From the NCBI GenBank assembly GCA_031264885.1, contig JAISDM010000016.1:1-32163 (forward strand): a stretch of 32,163 nt of DNA, written 5' to 3'. The DNA is from Peptococcaceae bacterium (GTDB lineage Bacteria > Bacillota > Peptococcia > DRI-13 > UBA5745). The notes beneath the pieces were generated by a model. The model saw only the letters and a list, made by a program, of their open reading frames with translations, had not been told where the DNA came from and did no database searches. Each line of letters begins with the position of its first letter. Positions within the stretch are counted from its first letter, which is position 1. Below, piece after piece: positions 6,259 to 25,124 of the stretch. The translations under genes and the position numbers were made by a program.

Positions 6259-7962
6259 TCAATTGTTGGCAGATCCACGCAGCATTGCATCCCAGTCGGA
6301 GGGCAGCTCGATCTTTTTACTTACTGGGTATCCTATAAATCCGTTCTGGGCGCAGACAAGGGTATGATCCCTGGCGGGGTCGCCGCTTACAGCGATCTGT
6401 AAATCATCGGGATCGGAGACCATCTGGACATACCGGTTCGGATCCGCGGACGTGCCCAGCTGTTCAGGCCAGCTCCCGTCTTCGATGCCCTTTTGGAACC
6501 GCGCGATTTCCTTCCCGCTCATATCAGCCGGCTTCAGCTTCGCGTTCTCATAGAGATACCGCTTGATTTTTTCCTTGGTATAGCCAGCCTTCGCCAACTC
6601 TTTCACCACGAGCGGCGTGAGTATGATCAAAGGTCGCGTCTTTTGGCCCCGGAAGAAGAACTGAATGAAAAGATGATTATCAGCCATACGCTTTGCGATG
6701 TTTTCCAGTGTGCCTTCGGCAGTGGGCATACCGGACTCGATCAGCTGAGTCCGCTCCGTGACGGAAGTCAGAGTGACGACATTATCCCCGGTCTTGAAGC
6801 CCCGATCAGCGCTCAATGGCTGCCAGCCGGCCTCGGCAATCGCGTCCTCGTTTTCCGCCAAAACAATTCTGAAGTTATCTCCAAAGCAGCCTTTATCCGC
6901 TTTATGAGGCAAAAATCCGCACACATTCCGTATGTACATACGCAGGAAACGGCCGATGCTGGTATTCGCCTGAAATCCGGGGCGAAGAATTCCCTGGGTA
7001 TAGTTAAACTCCAAATCCTTAATGATCTTGCCATTTATGATAATCAACGTTTCCGTTCCAGGCGTCTGCCCCAGATGCTCCTGGCCAAAATCCGGGTCGC
7101 ACAGCCCTTCGACAATGGCGATCAGTACAGGCATATATTCCGGGCGGCAGCCGCTCATCACGCCGTTTACGGCAATGTTCCAAATTGTCGCCTCACGGTT
7201 ATCCGGCTTCAAGACCCCGACGACCGAACCCGCGGGGCGCGCCGTAAACCGCAGGAATTTCTCCACCTCTTCAATCACCGGCGGAATGACAGGCAGACCG
7301 TCGCTCCACTCGCGCATATAATAAAAGTCGTTGACCTCCTTGAGATTACCGGAAAAAACGATATCTCTCATCCCCGGCTCCTTCACCGGCTTCGCGTCCG
7401 CCGGCTGCACAGTCAGAGCCTTGACAACCTGGTCGGTCATAACCTCGGCCGCGTTCTTATAAATCTCTTCATCCGTAAAGAAATTGACATGTCCCGGATG
7501 AACCGCGTAGGGCAAATTGGGATATCCTTCGCCCGCCGCATTGAAGCCGCCCGCCGTTTGGAAACCGTCACAACAAAGTGTCACGGTGGGAATCCCTAAC
7601 TTCTCAACCAAAATGCTGGTTCGGGTCACGGCGGCGATACAGCTGCCGCAGCAGCCGACGCCGCAGATTACGGCGTCTACGCCAAAGCTCTTCAGCTTCC
7701 CGGGGAGATCGGCCAATACCTCATGCTCCTTGCCCCCGTGAATTTCACCAAACTCCTTCCAGCTTATGAAACGGATCCCGGGATACCGTCTCCCCAACTC
7801 CGCTTCAAATCCCTCGCACATGACATCACCTTTGAAAACCCAATCCCATAACTCCGCTACGACCTTGCCCTCCAGCGTATCCAGGCGCTTCGCGAGTTTA
7901 GCGCCTGTTATGGTGGACTTTCCGCGGGGCCATACAACATCATACACATTGGCGTCTTTCAT
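6259..7962 (-). CDS. UGSC-like (seleno)protein-family fusion, Cys form, paralogue 1
   Basis: 567 aa; N-terminal VDAVICGVGCCGSCIAAVTR matches a [U/C]GSC motif; C-terminal EWSDGLPVIPPVIEEVEKFL...WNIAVNGVMSGCRPEYMPVL domain shared with 18002-19723. Confidence 0.75.
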   Translation of the reverse strand: MKDANVYDVVWPRGKSTITGAKLAKRLDTLEGKVVAELWDWVFKGDVMCEGFEAELGRRYPGIRFISWKEFGEIHGGKEHEVLADLPGKLKSFGVDAVICGVGCCGSCIAAVTRTSILVEKLGIPTVTLCCDGFQTAGGFNAAGEGYPNLPYAVHPGHVNFFTDEEIYKNAAEVMTDQVVKALTVQPADAKPVKEPGMRDIVFSGNLKEVNDFYYMREWSDGLPVIPPVIEEVEKFLRFTARPAGSVVGVLKPDNREATIWNIAVNGVMSGCRPEYMPVLIAIVEGLCDPDFGQEHLGQTPGTETLIIINGKIIKDLEFNYTQGILRPGFQANTSIGRFLRMYIRNVCGFLPHKADKGCFGDNFRIVLAENEDAIAEAGWQPLSADRGFKTGDNVVTLTSVTERTQLIESGMPTAEGTLENIAKRMADNHLFIQFFFRGQKTRPLIILTPLVVKELAKAGYTKEKIKRYLYENAKLKPADMSGKEIARFQKGIEDGSWPEQLGTSADPNRYVQMVSDPDDLQIAVSGDPARDHTLVCAQNGFIGYPVSKKIELPSDWDAMLRGSANN

Positions 7963-8101
7963 GGAACATTCCTCCTCTACATTTTGAATTTACACACAGT
8001 GGATTGTTTATTTCACACTATCATAAAAACAAAATATAAGGAACTTTCTTTGAGATTACCCCAACCGGCGTTAACCGTCGGTTTACGCGCGGTTTATAAG
8101 T

Positions 8102-8131
8102 AAAGCGAGCCAGGCTCGGCTCGCTTTTTTT
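8102..8131. terminator. GC-rich stem-loop with flanking T/A tracts, possibly bidirectional
   Basis: AAAGCGAGCC-AGGCTC-GGCTCGCTTT followed by TTTT; abuts the stop of the LysR gene at 8130. Confidence 0.65.
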
Positions 8132-8990
8132 ATGCGTTCTCTTGGGGATACATGTCGTAAACAACATTGAGAAGCGCCATAACTACCGGAGACGGCGATT
8201 TGCGATGGAGAATGACCCCCACCGGCATAAGATCGGTCTCAAGCGGGACGGCGGCGAGCGAATTCAACATATTCACAAAAGACGCTTTGGTGATAAAAAC
8301 ACCATTGTTATAACAAATGCCCATAATGCTTTGCAGGTCATTGCTCGGAAGGGTCTCCAGCTTCAGATGATCACAACATTTGTTCAGCTGTTCCAAAAGA
8401 TCGGTGTTTTTCCACAATACTCCCACATGCTGACCGGATAAATCTTCCAACCGGATCGTCTGCTTTTTGGCCAGCGGATGATTTGGCAGGAAAAGGCACT
8501 TGTAGGGCATGGGAAAAAGCACGGTATACCGTATATCGGGGCGGTCCAGCATTGGATGATAGGTGCATTCGGCCACATCCGCCCGATCATGGAGTATATC
8601 TTCAACAAGATTGCCGCTTGCCTGCAATTTTATTTTAACCCCAGGAAATTTACGGGAGAATTCATTGAACACGTTGTCCAGCAGCAGATGTGGATGGGAA
8701 GGCGTTATAATGCGAACAGTCTGGTTTTGGAGCGCAAGTTCCCGGCCCCTTTGGGCAGCGGCTTCCATTTCGGCGATTGATTTCCTGGCGGCGTTACAGA
8801 ACAACTCGCCGGCGGGGGTCAGGGAGATACCCTGATGCGTGCGCACGAACAAAGTGAAGCCGAGCTCCTTCTCAAGGGAGTCGATCTGCTTCTTAACGGC
8901 CGGCTTTGAAAGATACAACGCTTCCCCGGCCTGGCTGAAACTGCCGCGCTCCGCTGTTGTAATCAGAGATTTGAGCTGCTGACTGTTCAT
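8130..8990 (-). CDS. LysR-family transcriptional regulator
   Basis: MNSQQLKSLITTAERGSFSQAGEALYLSKPAVKKQIDSLEKELGFTLFVRTHQGISLTPAG HTH. Start placed at 8990; the ORF-track extension overlaps the upstream LysR gene. Confidence 0.9.
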   Translation of the reverse strand: MNSQQLKSLITTAERGSFSQAGEALYLSKPAVKKQIDSLEKELGFTLFVRTHQGISLTPAGELFCNAARKSIAEMEAAAQRGRELALQNQTVRIITPSHPHLLLDNVFNEFSRKFPGVKIKLQASGNLVEDILHDRADVAECTYHPMLDRPDIRYTVLFPMPYKCLFLPNHPLAKKQTIRLEDLSGQHVGVLWKNTDLLEQLNKCCDHLKLETLPSNDLQSIMGICYNNGVFITKASFVNMLNSLAAVPLETDLMPVGVILHRKSPSPVVMALLNVVYDMYPQENA

Positions 8991-9039: not shown

Positions 9040-9921
9040 TTAGAAATTGGGAATTGGCAGGTCCATATAAAACTCAATGATGCTCTGCCGCATAAACGCC
9101 TGAGAAGCGTTCTTTGTGTCATTCTTTCGCCAATAAAGAGAGATCGGCAATTCAATATCAAAATTCTCAACAGGCAGAATGACCAGATCATCGTCGGCAG
9201 GCAGGTTGTACACCACCATAAGTCCAAGGCACCTGTTGGAACGGATGGCCTTGATCATATCGGCGGAATCGCGGCCCAAAAATGTAATTCGGGGATTAAA
9301 TCCGACAGACTGGGGCAGATCCTTGGCGAGACTAATCAGCGAGTGCGACACGCCGGTAGTTGAGCAGAAGGAGTGACGGTTCAAGTCACTCTTCGTAACC
9401 GTTTTCGCGTCCGCGAGCGGGTGTGCCTTATTGGCCACGACCGCCAGCTTATGATAACGGAGGAGCGCCCGGTCAATGCTCATATTGTTTGACCGGCCCA
9501 GCGTAATCACCAGGTCACAGTTATTGTTAACCAACTCATATTCCCAATTTTCCGGTATATTCTCCACCTTTAAATTCAGGCCCCGGGACAGCAAAAGATT
9601 AATCAGTTGGGAATTCGCCGGGGAAATAGAGCATGCCAGACGAACGAAATTCACCGATCTCTGCTTCAACTCTTCCATTTCGTTCATACACGAATCCATA
9701 ATATTTTCGACGGCGGTAACGCCCCGCAGAAAAATTTCGCCGTACTCATTTAACTGAATCCCCCGGCCGGTGCGGTCAAACAGCTGAAAGCCGATCTCCG
9801 CCTCCAGTCTGCGGATTGACGCTGAAAGCGAAGGCTGAGTAATGTTGAGCTGCTGGGCCGCTTTGGTCATATGCCGGGTACGGGCTACGACGGCAAAATA
9901 TTTTAAAGTGGCAATATCCAT
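9040..9921 (-). CDS. LysR-family transcriptional regulator
   Basis: MDIATLKYFAVVARTRHMTKAAQQLNITQPSLSASIRRLEAEIGFQLFDRTGRGIQL HTH plus substrate-binding-like domain. Confidence 0.93.
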   Translation of the reverse strand: MDIATLKYFAVVARTRHMTKAAQQLNITQPSLSASIRRLEAEIGFQLFDRTGRGIQLNEYGEIFLRGVTAVENIMDSCMNEMEELKQRSVNFVRLACSISPANSQLINLLLSRGLNLKVENIPENWEYELVNNNCDLVITLGRSNNMSIDRALLRYHKLAVVANKAHPLADAKTVTKSDLNRHSFCSTTGVSHSLISLAKDLPQSVGFNPRITFLGRDSADMIKAIRSNRCLGLMVVYNLPADDDLVILPVENFDIELPISLYWRKNDTKNASQAFMRQSIIEFYMDLPIPNF

Positions 9922-9995: not shown

Positions 9996-10024
9996 ATTAT
10001 AGCATATGTATTTGTAAGGGCCAA
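9996..10024 (-). promoter_or_regulatory. Sigma-70-type promoter for the LysR gene 9040-9921
   Basis: Minus strand TTGGCC-N17-TATAAT; -10 at 9996-10001, -35 at 10019-10024. Confidence 0.65.
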
Positions 10025-10037
10025 TCATTTTGACAAA

Positions 10038-10075
10038 TGATAGTCAAAACGTTATCAAATATACCATCGATAGTT
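10038..10075. promoter_or_regulatory. Putative LysR-type operator TGATAGT-N8-TATCA-N8-ATCGATAGTT
   Basis: Same motif and spacing occur at 19807-19844; located upstream of the LysR -35 box and between divergent transcription units. Confidence 0.65.
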
Positions 10076-10150
10076 ATCGCCGTATAGTACCGAAAAAATG
10101 TCCTATTCGACTACACTGCGCGGTATACGGTATAATTTTGAGTAGGTTGT

Positions 10151-11065
10151 TTGGTATGGCGGCGCAACACACTTGAGCAAACCAATAAGATCATCAACGA
10201 AGAATCCCAGGCGACGAACGCCTATGAGACCGGCGAGGTTGATGTTCTGTCGCTGAACCCCACGGCGGATCTTGATTATCTCGCCGCCCTCCCCAACACC
10301 GCCCAGATTAGATTGGTCATGCCCACATGCACAATGATCCGCTTCAACATGAGTGAGAACTCCATAATGAACAACAAGGACGCCCGTTACGCAGTCATGT
10401 ACGCAACGGACTTCAACGCCGTCAAAAACATCGCCTACGGCGGGTTGGGTACGGTTCCTCAATTTATCATTTCCGCTAACGGCGACGAAACGGAGCCCGA
10501 ATTCCTCAACGCAACAACAATCTATTCCGATCTGGCAAACGGACCAAACTACGATCTTGCCAAAGAATACGCCGAGAAAGCCGGAATTGTCGGCAAGACC
10601 CTGACGATCATTAACGACAGTACCGCCGTGTTCCAAAGCAGCTGCGAAGTCCTTCAAGCCTGCCTCGGAAATATTGGCGTAAACCTTGAGATCGTAAACT
10701 ATGACGCCGGCAGCTTCAAGGAAAAATACGCCAGCCCCGATGGCTGGGATATGTTCCCCTCCGAGCATTCGAACCCGACCAACGCCAGTTACCCTCTCGC
10801 CACGCGTATCATTACCGCCAACAAGCTGTGCTGGTCCGGCCCGGAATATGACGCGGTCAACGCCCAGGCAAAGGAAGTCGTCGGTACCTTTGATCCGGCG
10901 AAACGCAAAACTCTTATGGAAGACTTCCTGGTTGTATTGCAGGATTACTCTCCGGCGTATAACCTTCTTGACAACGTGAAGGTTTACACATACGACTCCC
11001 GGCTCCGGGGCGTTGAAATCTTCCGTATGCATGACTTCCTTATCAAGGACTGGTCGTGGGTTTAA
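10151..11065 (+). pseudogene. 5'-truncated ABC transporter solute-binding protein (family 5, peptide type)
   Basis: Encodes only the C-terminal part (ATNAYETGEVDVLSL...KDARYAVMYATD...YDSRLRGVEIFRMHDFLIKDWSWV); no signal peptide or N-terminal lobe and no plausible upstream coding extension. Confidence 0.8.
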
Positions 11066-18001: not shown

Positions 18002-19723
18002 TTACATCTGAGCTTCTTTCAGCATTTCATTCCAATGATCCGGGAGCTTGACCGCCTGGCTGGTGAGCTTGCCCATCGAGTAGTTCGACCGGAAGAACTG
18101 GCTGCGGTTACGGGTCGGATCCCCGACGACAATGACGACAATGTTGGCTTCTTTCCAGAACAGCGGCACCATACGCTTGGGGTCGTCGGATTCATACCAT
18201 TCCGGATCAAGATTCCCCATCCCGACCTCTTCCTTTAAGCTGTAAGGCTGCCAATGATTAAACCGGGATACGTTCGTTTCGAAGTACTCGGCGGTAACCT
18301 TCGCGTGGGCGAGGATGTACTTTGTAATGGATTCTTTATCATACCCGCTCCCGGCAAGCAGCTTCGCGACGGCCGGGCTTAAGAACAGGACGTTGTTATC
18401 CTGATATCTGCGCATTGTCTGATAGGGTTCAGTCATCCTGGCTGCCCAGTCGGTCAGATAATCCAGATGCTGTTCCGCGGTGGAACCGTTCGTCTGCATC
18501 GGGTCGCTGCATACGCGGCCGGAAACGATCGTGACGACGTTTTCGCCTTTGTCGAAGCCCTGCGTCTCAGCGACTGTCTTGAAGCCGATTTCTTCACAGA
18601 CTTGGTCATTCTCCGGGATAACCGGACGGAACATCTGTCCGTAGGTCGACATATCCGTCGAACCGATCTGGAACCCGGCGATGTTGCGCAGTATCAGGCG
18701 ATAGAAGCGGCCTACCGTTACGTTCGGCATACAATCCGGACGCTGATGCCCGATTTTGTAGTTGAATTTAAGTTGATCACGAATGGGCCCGTTCAGCATG
18801 ATCATCGCTTCCCACCCCGGAGTGGCGCCGGAGTCTTTGACGCTAAACTCAGGGGTCGCCATGATCTCGGCGATGGCGAGAAGCAGCGGGAAATATTCCG
18901 GATGACAGCCGGCCATAACACCGTTAACCGCGACTTTCCAAACAGTGCAGGAGGCCATGGACGGCTCCATAATGCCGATCACTTCCTCAGGATCGCGGTC
19001 CGTGAATTTCAGGAACTTCTCAATTTTTTCAACAGTCGGAGGGACAATCGGAAGACCGTCCGACCATTTCATTTCGTAGAAATAATCCTGGATCTCCTCG
19101 TTGCTTCCCTCAAAAATAATATCGCGGGAAGCCGGCCCTCTCTTTCTTTCCCTAGCCGTACTTTTGACAGGCGTTGTAAGGGCGGCGGCGATCTTCGGAA
19201 CGACAGCGTCACGAATGTTTTTGCGGACGGTATCCGCCGAATCCAGCGCGATCGGGTTCGGATATTCCACGAAACGGGCGTCCGGGTAGCCGGCGCTCTT
19301 CGCGTTCTGTTTTGCCATGGGTGGGAAGCCCTTGCAGAGTATGCCGACAGCCGGAATGCCCTGCCGCTCGACCAACACAACGCCGCGCGCCACAGCGGGA
19401 GAGCAGGTACCGCAGCAGCCGTTGCCGACAATTACGGCGTCAATGCCGTTTTTCTTAAGCTGTTCCGGAAGAGCCGCCATCATCTCGGCTTCATAAGACG
19501 GATCATGGAAATTGCCGAAGGTCTTGTAGCCGACAAATTTAATGTCCGGATACATGGCTTTTAATTCTTCTTCAATCATCGGGAAGGTTTCATCGCCGCG
19601 GAACGCCCAGTTCCAAAGCTCGCCGATGGTTTTTCCGTTGAGATCGGGGATGGACGGAGAAACTGTTTTGTCTTTTGAGACAGATACCGCGGCTGGATAA
19701 ACAACCTGAAGAACGCCACTCAT
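18002..19723 (-). CDS. UGSC-like (seleno)protein-family fusion, Cys form, paralogue 2
   Basis: 573 aa; VIVGNGCCGTCSPAVARG motif; KWSDGLPIVPPTVEKIEKFL...WKVAVNGVMAGCHPEYFPLL aligned by eye with 6259-7962. Confidence 0.75.
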   Translation of the reverse strand: MSGVLQVVYPAAVSVSKDKTVSPSIPDLNGKTIGELWNWAFRGDETFPMIEEELKAMYPDIKFVGYKTFGNFHDPSYEAEMMAALPEQLKKNGIDAVIVGNGCCGTCSPAVARGVVLVERQGIPAVGILCKGFPPMAKQNAKSAGYPDARFVEYPNPIALDSADTVRKNIRDAVVPKIAAALTTPVKSTARERKRGPASRDIIFEGSNEEIQDYFYEMKWSDGLPIVPPTVEKIEKFLKFTDRDPEEVIGIMEPSMASCTVWKVAVNGVMAGCHPEYFPLLLAIAEIMATPEFSVKDSGATPGWEAMIMLNGPIRDQLKFNYKIGHQRPDCMPNVTVGRFYRLILRNIAGFQIGSTDMSTYGQMFRPVIPENDQVCEEIGFKTVAETQGFDKGENVVTIVSGRVCSDPMQTNGSTAEQHLDYLTDWAARMTEPYQTMRRYQDNNVLFLSPAVAKLLAGSGYDKESITKYILAHAKVTAEYFETNVSRFNHWQPYSLKEEVGMGNLDPEWYESDDPKRMVPLFWKEANIVVIVVGDPTRNRSQFFRSNYSMGKLTSQAVKLPDHWNEMLKEAQM

Positions 19724-19759: not shown

Positions 19760-19788
19760 ATTATACTTTGAGTGGTTTTTTTGTCCAA
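19760..19788 (-). promoter_or_regulatory. Sigma-70-type promoter of UGSC paralogue 2
   Basis: Minus strand TTGGAC-N17-TATAAT; -10 at 19760-19765, -35 at 19783-19788. Confidence 0.75.
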
Positions 19789-19806: not shown

Positions 19807-19844
19807 TGATAGTTTAATGGCTATCAGTTGTTTTATCGATAGTT
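19807..19844. promoter_or_regulatory. Putative LysR-type operator TGATAGT-N8-TATCA-N8-ATCGATAGTT
   Basis: Contains dyad TGATAG-N8-CTATCA and a third half-site; identical spacing to 10038-10075. Confidence 0.7.
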
Positions 19845-19883
19845 TATACTCTATATTTGGAGAGGCGGCTGCGGTCAGCTTCT

Positions 19884-21624: not shown

Positions 21625-21647
21625 GGGCGGCAGAATGCCGCCCCTAC
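21625..21647 (+). repeat. REP-like palindrome GGGCGGCAGAATGCCGCCCCTAC, third copy
   Basis: Exact copy of 236-258. Confidence 0.9.
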
Positions 21648-23211: not shown

Positions 23212-24120
23212 TTAGACCCCCGCCGTTCCGGGGTTGGGCGCGCCTTCCCCGTTTGCCGCTTCATCCACAAACACTCGGACAGACGGGTTATCGGCGGGAT
23301 CGCAGTAGTACATGTTTACGTCGAAAGCGCAAGGCACGGTCGTGACCTGGGAAAGCGCGATATTGCGGTACTCCCCGCTGACCACGGACTTGGGTACGAT
23401 GGTCACGCCGTTTCCAAGGGAAACCATCAGCAAGGCGCTGTCCACATTTGGCACGGGGATCACATTGATCCGCCCGTTCGTATGTTTTTCCGCAAGTATG
23501 CGGTTCTGCGCGTACGGCCCCCAGAATTCGTCGTCAAAAGGCACAAACAGGTTTTCTTTTTCCAACTCTTTCAACTCGACAAACGGGGATTTTTGCAGCC
23601 GGCGGCCTGCCGGGAAAGCCACGAAGGCCGCCTGGCGAAAGGCTGCGGAGCATTTGATTTTATCCAACAGCTGCGTGTACGCGCAGGGGGACAGAAACAC
23701 GTCGTTTTCGAGGATTTCGCGGGATGTGACCGGCCCCCGCGCCACGCTGAGCGACAGGGCGATCCCCCGGTACCGGGCGGAAAACCGATGGATGAAGTCC
23801 AATGTGCCGCGCCCCAGGGAGCTTCTCGTGCAGGCGATTTTGAGCGTTCCGCCATCGGTTTGCCCGCCGATTTTGATGCGGCTTTCCAGTTTCGCGCATT
23901 TTTGAATCAGCCGCGCCGCGTCAAGCGATAACTGCTTGCCCGCCTCCGTCAGGCACATGGCGCGCGTGCTGCGCACGAACAGCTTGAATCCCAATTCTTC
24001 CTCCATTTCAAGGATATGACGGCTCAACACAGACTGGGTGATGTAGAGTTTTTTTGCCGCCAAGCTGTAGCTGCGCGTGTCGGCAAGCACCAGGAACTCC
24101 TGCAGGCGGTTCGTGGTCAT
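23212..24120 (-). CDS. LysR-family transcriptional regulator
   Basis: MTTNRLQEFLVLADTRSYSLAAKKLYITQSVLSRHILEMEEELGFKLFVRSTRAMCLTEAG. Confidence 0.92.
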   Translation of the reverse strand: MTTNRLQEFLVLADTRSYSLAAKKLYITQSVLSRHILEMEEELGFKLFVRSTRAMCLTEAGKQLSLDAARLIQKCAKLESRIKIGGQTDGGTLKIACTRSSLGRGTLDFIHRFSARYRGIALSLSVARGPVTSREILENDVFLSPCAYTQLLDKIKCSAAFRQAAFVAFPAGRRLQKSPFVELKELEKENLFVPFDDEFWGPYAQNRILAEKHTNGRINVIPVPNVDSALLMVSLGNGVTIVPKSVVSGEYRNIALSQVTTVPCAFDVNMYYCDPADNPSVRVFVDEAANGEGAPNPGTAGV

Positions 24121-25025
24121 TCCCCGACCCTCCCCTCGCCCGCGGCAAGAAAGGCTTTGAGCGCGTCCGCGAACAATGCCGCTGCCTCATTGGCCGGCTC
24201 CTTCTGACAGTAAAACCGCATCATCGCCTCGCCGCCGTCGCATAGAGAAAGAGCCACCGAGTCCGGCGGGGCTGCCGCCAGAGACGCCAACGGGTACATG
24301 GCCAGCCCTTTTTCCACGGACACCAGGTATTTGAACCATGTCTTGTCCTGGACATCGCCGCACAGCGAATAGGATATTCCCGATTCTTCCAATATCGCCT
24401 CTTGCCGGCGGCGTATGGCGGGTTCCCGGGTCTCCGGGTAGAGTATAAACTGCTCCCCCTCCAGTTCCTTGACGGACACTTCCGTCCGCCCCGCCAGCGG
24501 ATGGTCTTTAGGCACAAACACATACTGGTTCATCACACACACGTCCATGCCGCGTATCTGCGCTGTCTGCTGGGATTCTACGTAAAACGCGAAATACACG
24601 TCCACATCCCCCGCCTCCAGGCTGTCCATCACGCCATAGGCCGCGTCGTCGGTGAATTCCAGGTGCAGGCCGGGGTACATCCGGTTGAAACCGCGCAAAA
24701 ACTGCCTCAGCGCCGGCGGCAGTTCCAGCCCCATCACCGCCAGTTTTAAACGCCTGTACGCGCCGAACGCCGTATCGGCCCCCCGGCGCGCGATCCGCTG
24801 GTAATCCTCCAGAAGCTCGCGGCACTCATCAAAAAAGCATCGCCCGTCCGCCGTCAATTCCACCCGATGGGCATTGCGCGCAAGCAGCCTGACCCCAAGG
24901 CTGTTCTCAAATTTGGAAAAACGCGCGCTCAAAACCGCCGCGGACACCTGAAGCCGTGCCGCCGTCCGCGCAAAACTGCCCGACTCGGCAATCAGGATAA
25001 ATTCTCTCAAACGCTCATAGTTCAT
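24117..25025 (-). CDS. LysR-family transcriptional regulator
   Basis: MNYERLREFILIAESGSFARTAARLQVSAAVLSARFSKFENSLGVRLLARNAHRVELTADG; stop overlaps the next LysR start by 4 bp. Confidence 0.9.
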   Translation of the reverse strand: MNYERLREFILIAESGSFARTAARLQVSAAVLSARFSKFENSLGVRLLARNAHRVELTADGRCFFDECRELLEDYQRIARRGADTAFGAYRRLKLAVMGLELPPALRQFLRGFNRMYPGLHLEFTDDAAYGVMDSLEAGDVDVYFAFYVESQQTAQIRGMDVCVMNQYVFVPKDHPLAGRTEVSVKELEGEQFILYPETREPAIRRRQEAILEESGISYSLCGDVQDKTWFKYLVSVEKGLAMYPLASLAAAPPDSVALSLCDGGEAMMRFYCQKEPANEAAALFADALKAFLAAGEGRVGE

Positions 25026-25124
25026 GTCACACCTCAATTCGAGGCAATTGTAGCACAAATGCCATGAGACTGGAAGCGGCAAATCCACGGCGGCGGTGTG
25101 GTTCCGCGCGATGGTTCCGCGCGG

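Follow-up and report, generated by a model that had tools for sequence, protein, structure and literature searches.

The operators of LysR-type regulators (LTTRs) are built on a palindromic site, with a conserved T-N11-A as their defining signature. The OxyR operator consists of four ATAG/CTAT half-sites with N7 spacing throughout. An LTTR gene and a divergent operon arranged around a shared intergenic region form the commonest LysR layout (PMC4834489), and the LTTR operator layout used here for comparison, comprising a primary (RBS) and an activation (ABS) site, is that of PMC4834489 and PMC11739112. UGSC-containing (seleno)proteins (PMC2398784, NF041046, PF24696) are widespread in environmental samples (PMC2398784), and the available portions of the literature on UGSC proteins describe no regulation of the family.

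The window analysed here, 32,163 nucleotides long, is an entire contig (C272) of a 3.26 Mb genome in 308 contigs. It carries two copies of a spaced motif, one upstream of a LysR-type regulator gene (LysR-A) and one upstream of a UGSC gene (UGSC2). Judged by their sequence, the two copies are very probably a shared operator of one sequence-specific regulator. The fuller explanation, in which LysR-A acts through this operator on UGSC2 and on the lysR-A promoter region, is on balance preferred, with moderate confidence.

Architecture of the two arrays

The first-pass annotation reported TGATAGT-N8-TATCA-N8-ATCGATAGTT at two places with constant spacing, and both matches are present without a single mismatch, the N8 spacers being as described (Table 1). 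Nowhere else in the window does the pattern recur, even with 3 mismatches allowed. The three conserved blocks are one word, GATA(G), in alternating orientation. An additional half-site, TATA, lies at an equal offset (+44) in both copies, making the array one half-site longer than first noted. Each copy consists of two dyads (GATA-N10-TATC/A) in tandem, their centres 30 bp apart, which gives four half-sites spanning 48 bp at a half-site spacing of 14/16 bp. Site 1 alone has a fifth, partial half-site, AATC, at 10023-10026 on the promoter side; in site 2, GATAGTTTA occurs as an exact direct repeat, 30 bp apart (19808 and 19838). Both copies are intergenic, have identical orientation and each lie ahead of promoter-like sequence.

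In the proposed mechanism, one sequence-specific regulator would occupy both arrays, two dimers or one tetramer would bind the four half-sites cooperatively, and the bound regulator would act on UGSC2 as well as on the lysR-A promoter region. If LysR-A is this regulator, its targets would be its own gene, UGSC2 and perhaps the divergent transporter operon.

Table 1. Positions of the arrays, predicted promoters and genes in the window
Feature	Position	Strand	Basis or remark
LysR-A, LysR-type regulator, candidate binder	9040..9921	-	Pfam HTH_1 and LysR_substrate
LysR-B, second LysR-type regulator, alternative binder	8130..8990	-	Pfam; ~50 bp downstream of LysR-A
Site 1 as first noted, AACTATCGAT-N8-TGATA-N8-ACTATCA in minus-strand reading	10038..10075	-	exact match
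Site 2 as first noted	19807..19844	-	exact match
Site 1, full array GATA-N10-TATC-N12-GATA-N10-TATA	10039..10086	.	
Site 2, full array GATA-N10-TATC-N12-GATA-N10-TATA	19808..19855	.	
Predicted sigma-A-type promoter of LysR-A, TTGGCC-N17-TATAAT, TG before -10	9996..10024	-	10/12 matches; ahead of ATG at 9921
Predicted sigma-A-type promoter of UGSC2, TTGGACA...TATAAT	19760..19788	-	11/12 matches as TGGACA-N16-TATAAT
Divergent promoter-like TCGACT-N18-TATAAT, toward transporter operon	10107..10136	+	tentative, at shuffled frequency
UGSC2, predicted target, Cys form, GCCGTC	18002..19723	-	Pfam PF24696, 101.7 bits (cut-off 25)
UGSC1, Cys form	6259..7962	-	Pfam PF24696

Comparison with LysR-type and OxyR operators

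The array resembles LTTR operators in lying between an LTTR gene and a divergent operon (site 1), in having its motif centre near -65/-70, and in carrying four half-sites over ~50 bp as two dyads 30 bp apart, which would suit a tetramer. The primary LTTR site is expected near -65, and the centres of the 38-bp motif fall at about -67 (site 1) and -72 (site 2) relative to predicted starts, placed 7 bases past the -10. Site 1 sits in the intergenic region that separates LysR-A from the divergently transcribed transporter operon; next to site 2 there is no LTTR gene.

The array differs from LTTR operators in its half-sites, 14/16 bp apart, and in the absence of a T-N11-A signal above chance. The copies have two aligned T-N11-A positions in common, a number equalled in 54% of trials by random sequence pairs built on an identical match mask. 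Furthermore, conservation in the array is confined to positions upstream of about -50, and the two copies share no conserved site over the -35. The earlier designation as a LysR-type operator has its basis in position and not in T-N11-A or half-site spacing. In form the array resembles a multi-half-site operator occupied by a tetramer or a pair of dimers, and it may be counted as a candidate member of the LysR operators. The OxyR operator has similar words, alternating orientation and four half-sites, but its N7 spacing contrasts with N10/N12 in the array.

The candidate binder

LysR-A, in whose own upstream region site 1 sits, is the most likely binder of the array, a candidacy held with moderate confidence. 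The alternative that survives best is that the shared operator is real and its binder is another protein: LysR-B, one of the two LysR proteins encoded at 23212-25088, or a dimer of another family encoded at an unlinked locus. This is a serious possibility, if a doubtful one. It draws on the 14/16 bp half-site spacing and the missing T-N11-A signal, which are not LysR-specific, and on LysR-B, which lies directly behind LysR-A and has a paralogue adjoining another UGSC gene. Set against it are the position of site 1 directly upstream of LysR-A, the lack of any array near the LysR genes at 23212-25088, and the promoter of the LysR-B paralogue, which has a different dyad.

LysR-A and LysR-B are 27% identical across 199 aligned positions. 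The LysR-B paralogue, 56% identical, is found on contig C194 as the neighbour of a Sec-type UGSC operon, and its upstream region contains the dyad ACTTTTGG/CCAAAAGT and no GATA/TATC array. This different dyad mildly favours LysR-A as the probable array binder and makes it the better local candidate. The dyad itself, ACTTTTGG-N40-CCAAAAGT, extends across the paralogue's promoter (locus L029, 12245-12300) and is possibly an autoregulatory site.

The window is rich in LysR genes, with four in 17 kb. The pair at 23212-25088 forms a tandem, bordered by the second transporter operon on one side and by two carboxylesterase genes on the other.

Chance and duplication

Two unrelated AT-rich promoter regions might share spaced words by chance and be picked out post hoc, and two points favour this reading. 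The two copies were themselves the source of the pattern, which makes the "expected 0.00" returned by the pattern search circular. Their raw identity is 27/38, and the best intergenic pair reaches at least 27 in 7 of 40 Markov shuffles of the window's intergenic DNA; this identity is by itself not significant and was dropped as evidence.

Three observations stand against chance and leave it an unlikely explanation. First, the identical positions cluster in blocks of 7, 5 and 10, and only 4 of 500 intergenic shuffles (~0.008 for the pair) place as many as 22 bases of a 38-bp stretch in runs of five or longer, palindromes paired with themselves being excluded. Second, the blocks are one word alternating in orientation, in a series that continues at +44 in both copies. 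Third, the exact core TATC-N12-GATA-N10-TATC is observed twice, compared with ~0.05-0.08 expected in the genome's noncoding DNA, assuming 10-15% noncoding DNA and the base composition of the window. The statistical significance of the pair is modest, because there are only two sites.

The view that the copies are a bound operator and not a recent duplication agrees with the pattern of conservation: half-sites are kept, spacers and flanks have diverged, and the motif is unique in the genome, intergenic and in the same orientation before promoters. The similarity does not continue through the spacers and flanks. The 60-base flanks of the two sites are identical at 21/60 and 13/60 positions, and a local alignment of both upstream regions scores below the shuffled maximum. 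Since the flanks are unrelated and the spacers differ, the copies are not a recent duplication. From their shared orientation, the 9.7 kb that they bound, a PD-(D/E)XK transposase-family gene between them and a truncated SBP_bac_5 gene just past site 1, the copies might be suspected of being direct repeats derived from a mobile element or from recombination. This is highly improbable, as the differing spacers and flanks offer no common crossover core, no integrase occurs among the scanned genes, and both copies occupy matching positions before promoters.

The truncated gene (10151-11065) encodes the solute-binding protein of a dpp-like operon and lacks its 5' half, the Pfam match beginning at profile position 154 of 368. 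One reading is a junction near 10140-10165, produced by rearrangement or by assembly, and the genome contains no closely related copy of this gene at full length.

Promoter geometry

The minus-strand TTGG(C/A)C-N17-TATAAT sequences named in the first-pass annotation do exist, TTGGCC at 10024-9996 and TTGGAC in a sequence that can also be read as TGGACA-N16 (19787-19760). Shuffled sequence yields as many promoter-like matches as either region does, and the promoters are therefore plausible rather than proven. Array 1 is located between two -35 boxes, those of the LysR-A promoter and of the divergent promoter-like sequence.

The distance from motif to promoter is unequal at the two sites. The gap between motif and -35 is 13 bp at site 1 and 18 bp at site 2, a difference of 5 bp or half a helical turn, and the corresponding distances to the -10, 36 and 41 bp, place the motif on opposite helix faces. 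This half-turn difference speaks against identical activation geometry at both promoters.

UGSC genes and the extent of the regulon

The two UGSC proteins of the window are 36% identical. Like the described UGSC-containing (seleno)proteins, both belong to PF24696; unlike them, they have Cys in place of Sec and a long C-terminal part, and they score below the NCBIfam cut-off (NF041046). UGSC1 lies downstream of LysR-A and LysR-B, with a terminator-like hairpin between (8102-8127) that is stronger when read on the plus strand. UGSC1 was considered as the place of a third site and rejected: only a lone 7-mer, TGATAGT in minus-strand reading, is found at 8017-8023, with no array. The remaining two UGSC genes of the genome (contigs C194 and C286) likewise have no array upstream. 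The regulon is predicted to comprise two promoters. Such a regulon is plausibly an ordinary kind of switch, routine apart from the UGSC link.

A more specific reading, offered tentatively and doubtful as it stands, is that LysR-A may be an orphan LysR-type regulator with its own operator grammar (alternating GATA/TATC, 14/16 bp, without T-N11-A), which would connect a locus of peptide-transporter and esterase genes with a UGSC gene of the Cys type. If true, this would open a first way into the conditions under which UGSC proteins are produced. A defined operator together with a candidate sensor protein would help to ask which compound induces the UGSC gene.

Distribution in the genome and the phylum

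A genome-wide search had been proposed as a check on the motif, and in 3.26 Mb the near-complete pattern occurs only twice at ≤3 mismatches. The exact core TATC-N12-GATA-N10-TATC is likewise confined, genome-wide, to these two sites, both on this contig. With ≤3 mismatches, a 16-base core gives 12 matches in the genome compared with 8 when the pattern is reversed as a control; the two sites and their self-overlaps account for 4 of the 12. All classifiable 1-mismatch matches of a 12-base core elsewhere in the genome fall within open frames; the automatic classification did not extend to four near contig ends, and of these the match in C250 overlaps a pair of small predicted coding genes.

Across 399 genomes of the phylum, the 22-base motif with ≤2 mismatches has only two other matches, both in coding frames. 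No relative of LysR-A at E≤1e-40 is found in these 399 genomes; there are only distant relatives, with 24-38% identity, and none close enough for phylogenetic footprinting. The loci of these distant relatives contain no core at ≤1 mismatch, except for two in locus L004, kilobases away from the gene. The flanks of UGSC2 homologues from other genera (~30% identity; L011-L013 and L036-L038) contain no core. No conserved copy of the array turned up in any other genome searched, which counts against the preferred explanation and means that the regulon is either lineage-specific or unsampled.

The UGSC paralogue on contig C194 (L029, 6779-8482, minus strand) has a single in-frame TGA (residue 105, within the UGSC motif) and is probably a selenoprotein; both UGSC copies of the window have Cys where it has TGA. 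Its neighbours are LutC/LUD-, thioredoxin reductase-, MaoC-type hydratase-, enoyl-CoA hydratase- and MmgE/PrpD-like genes, named by eye from translations, in addition to the LysR-B paralogue. A dispersed palindromic repeat, GGGCGGCAGAATGCCGCCC, occurs in the window at 236-254, 284-302 and 21625-21643, and also precedes the UGSC gene of contig C286.
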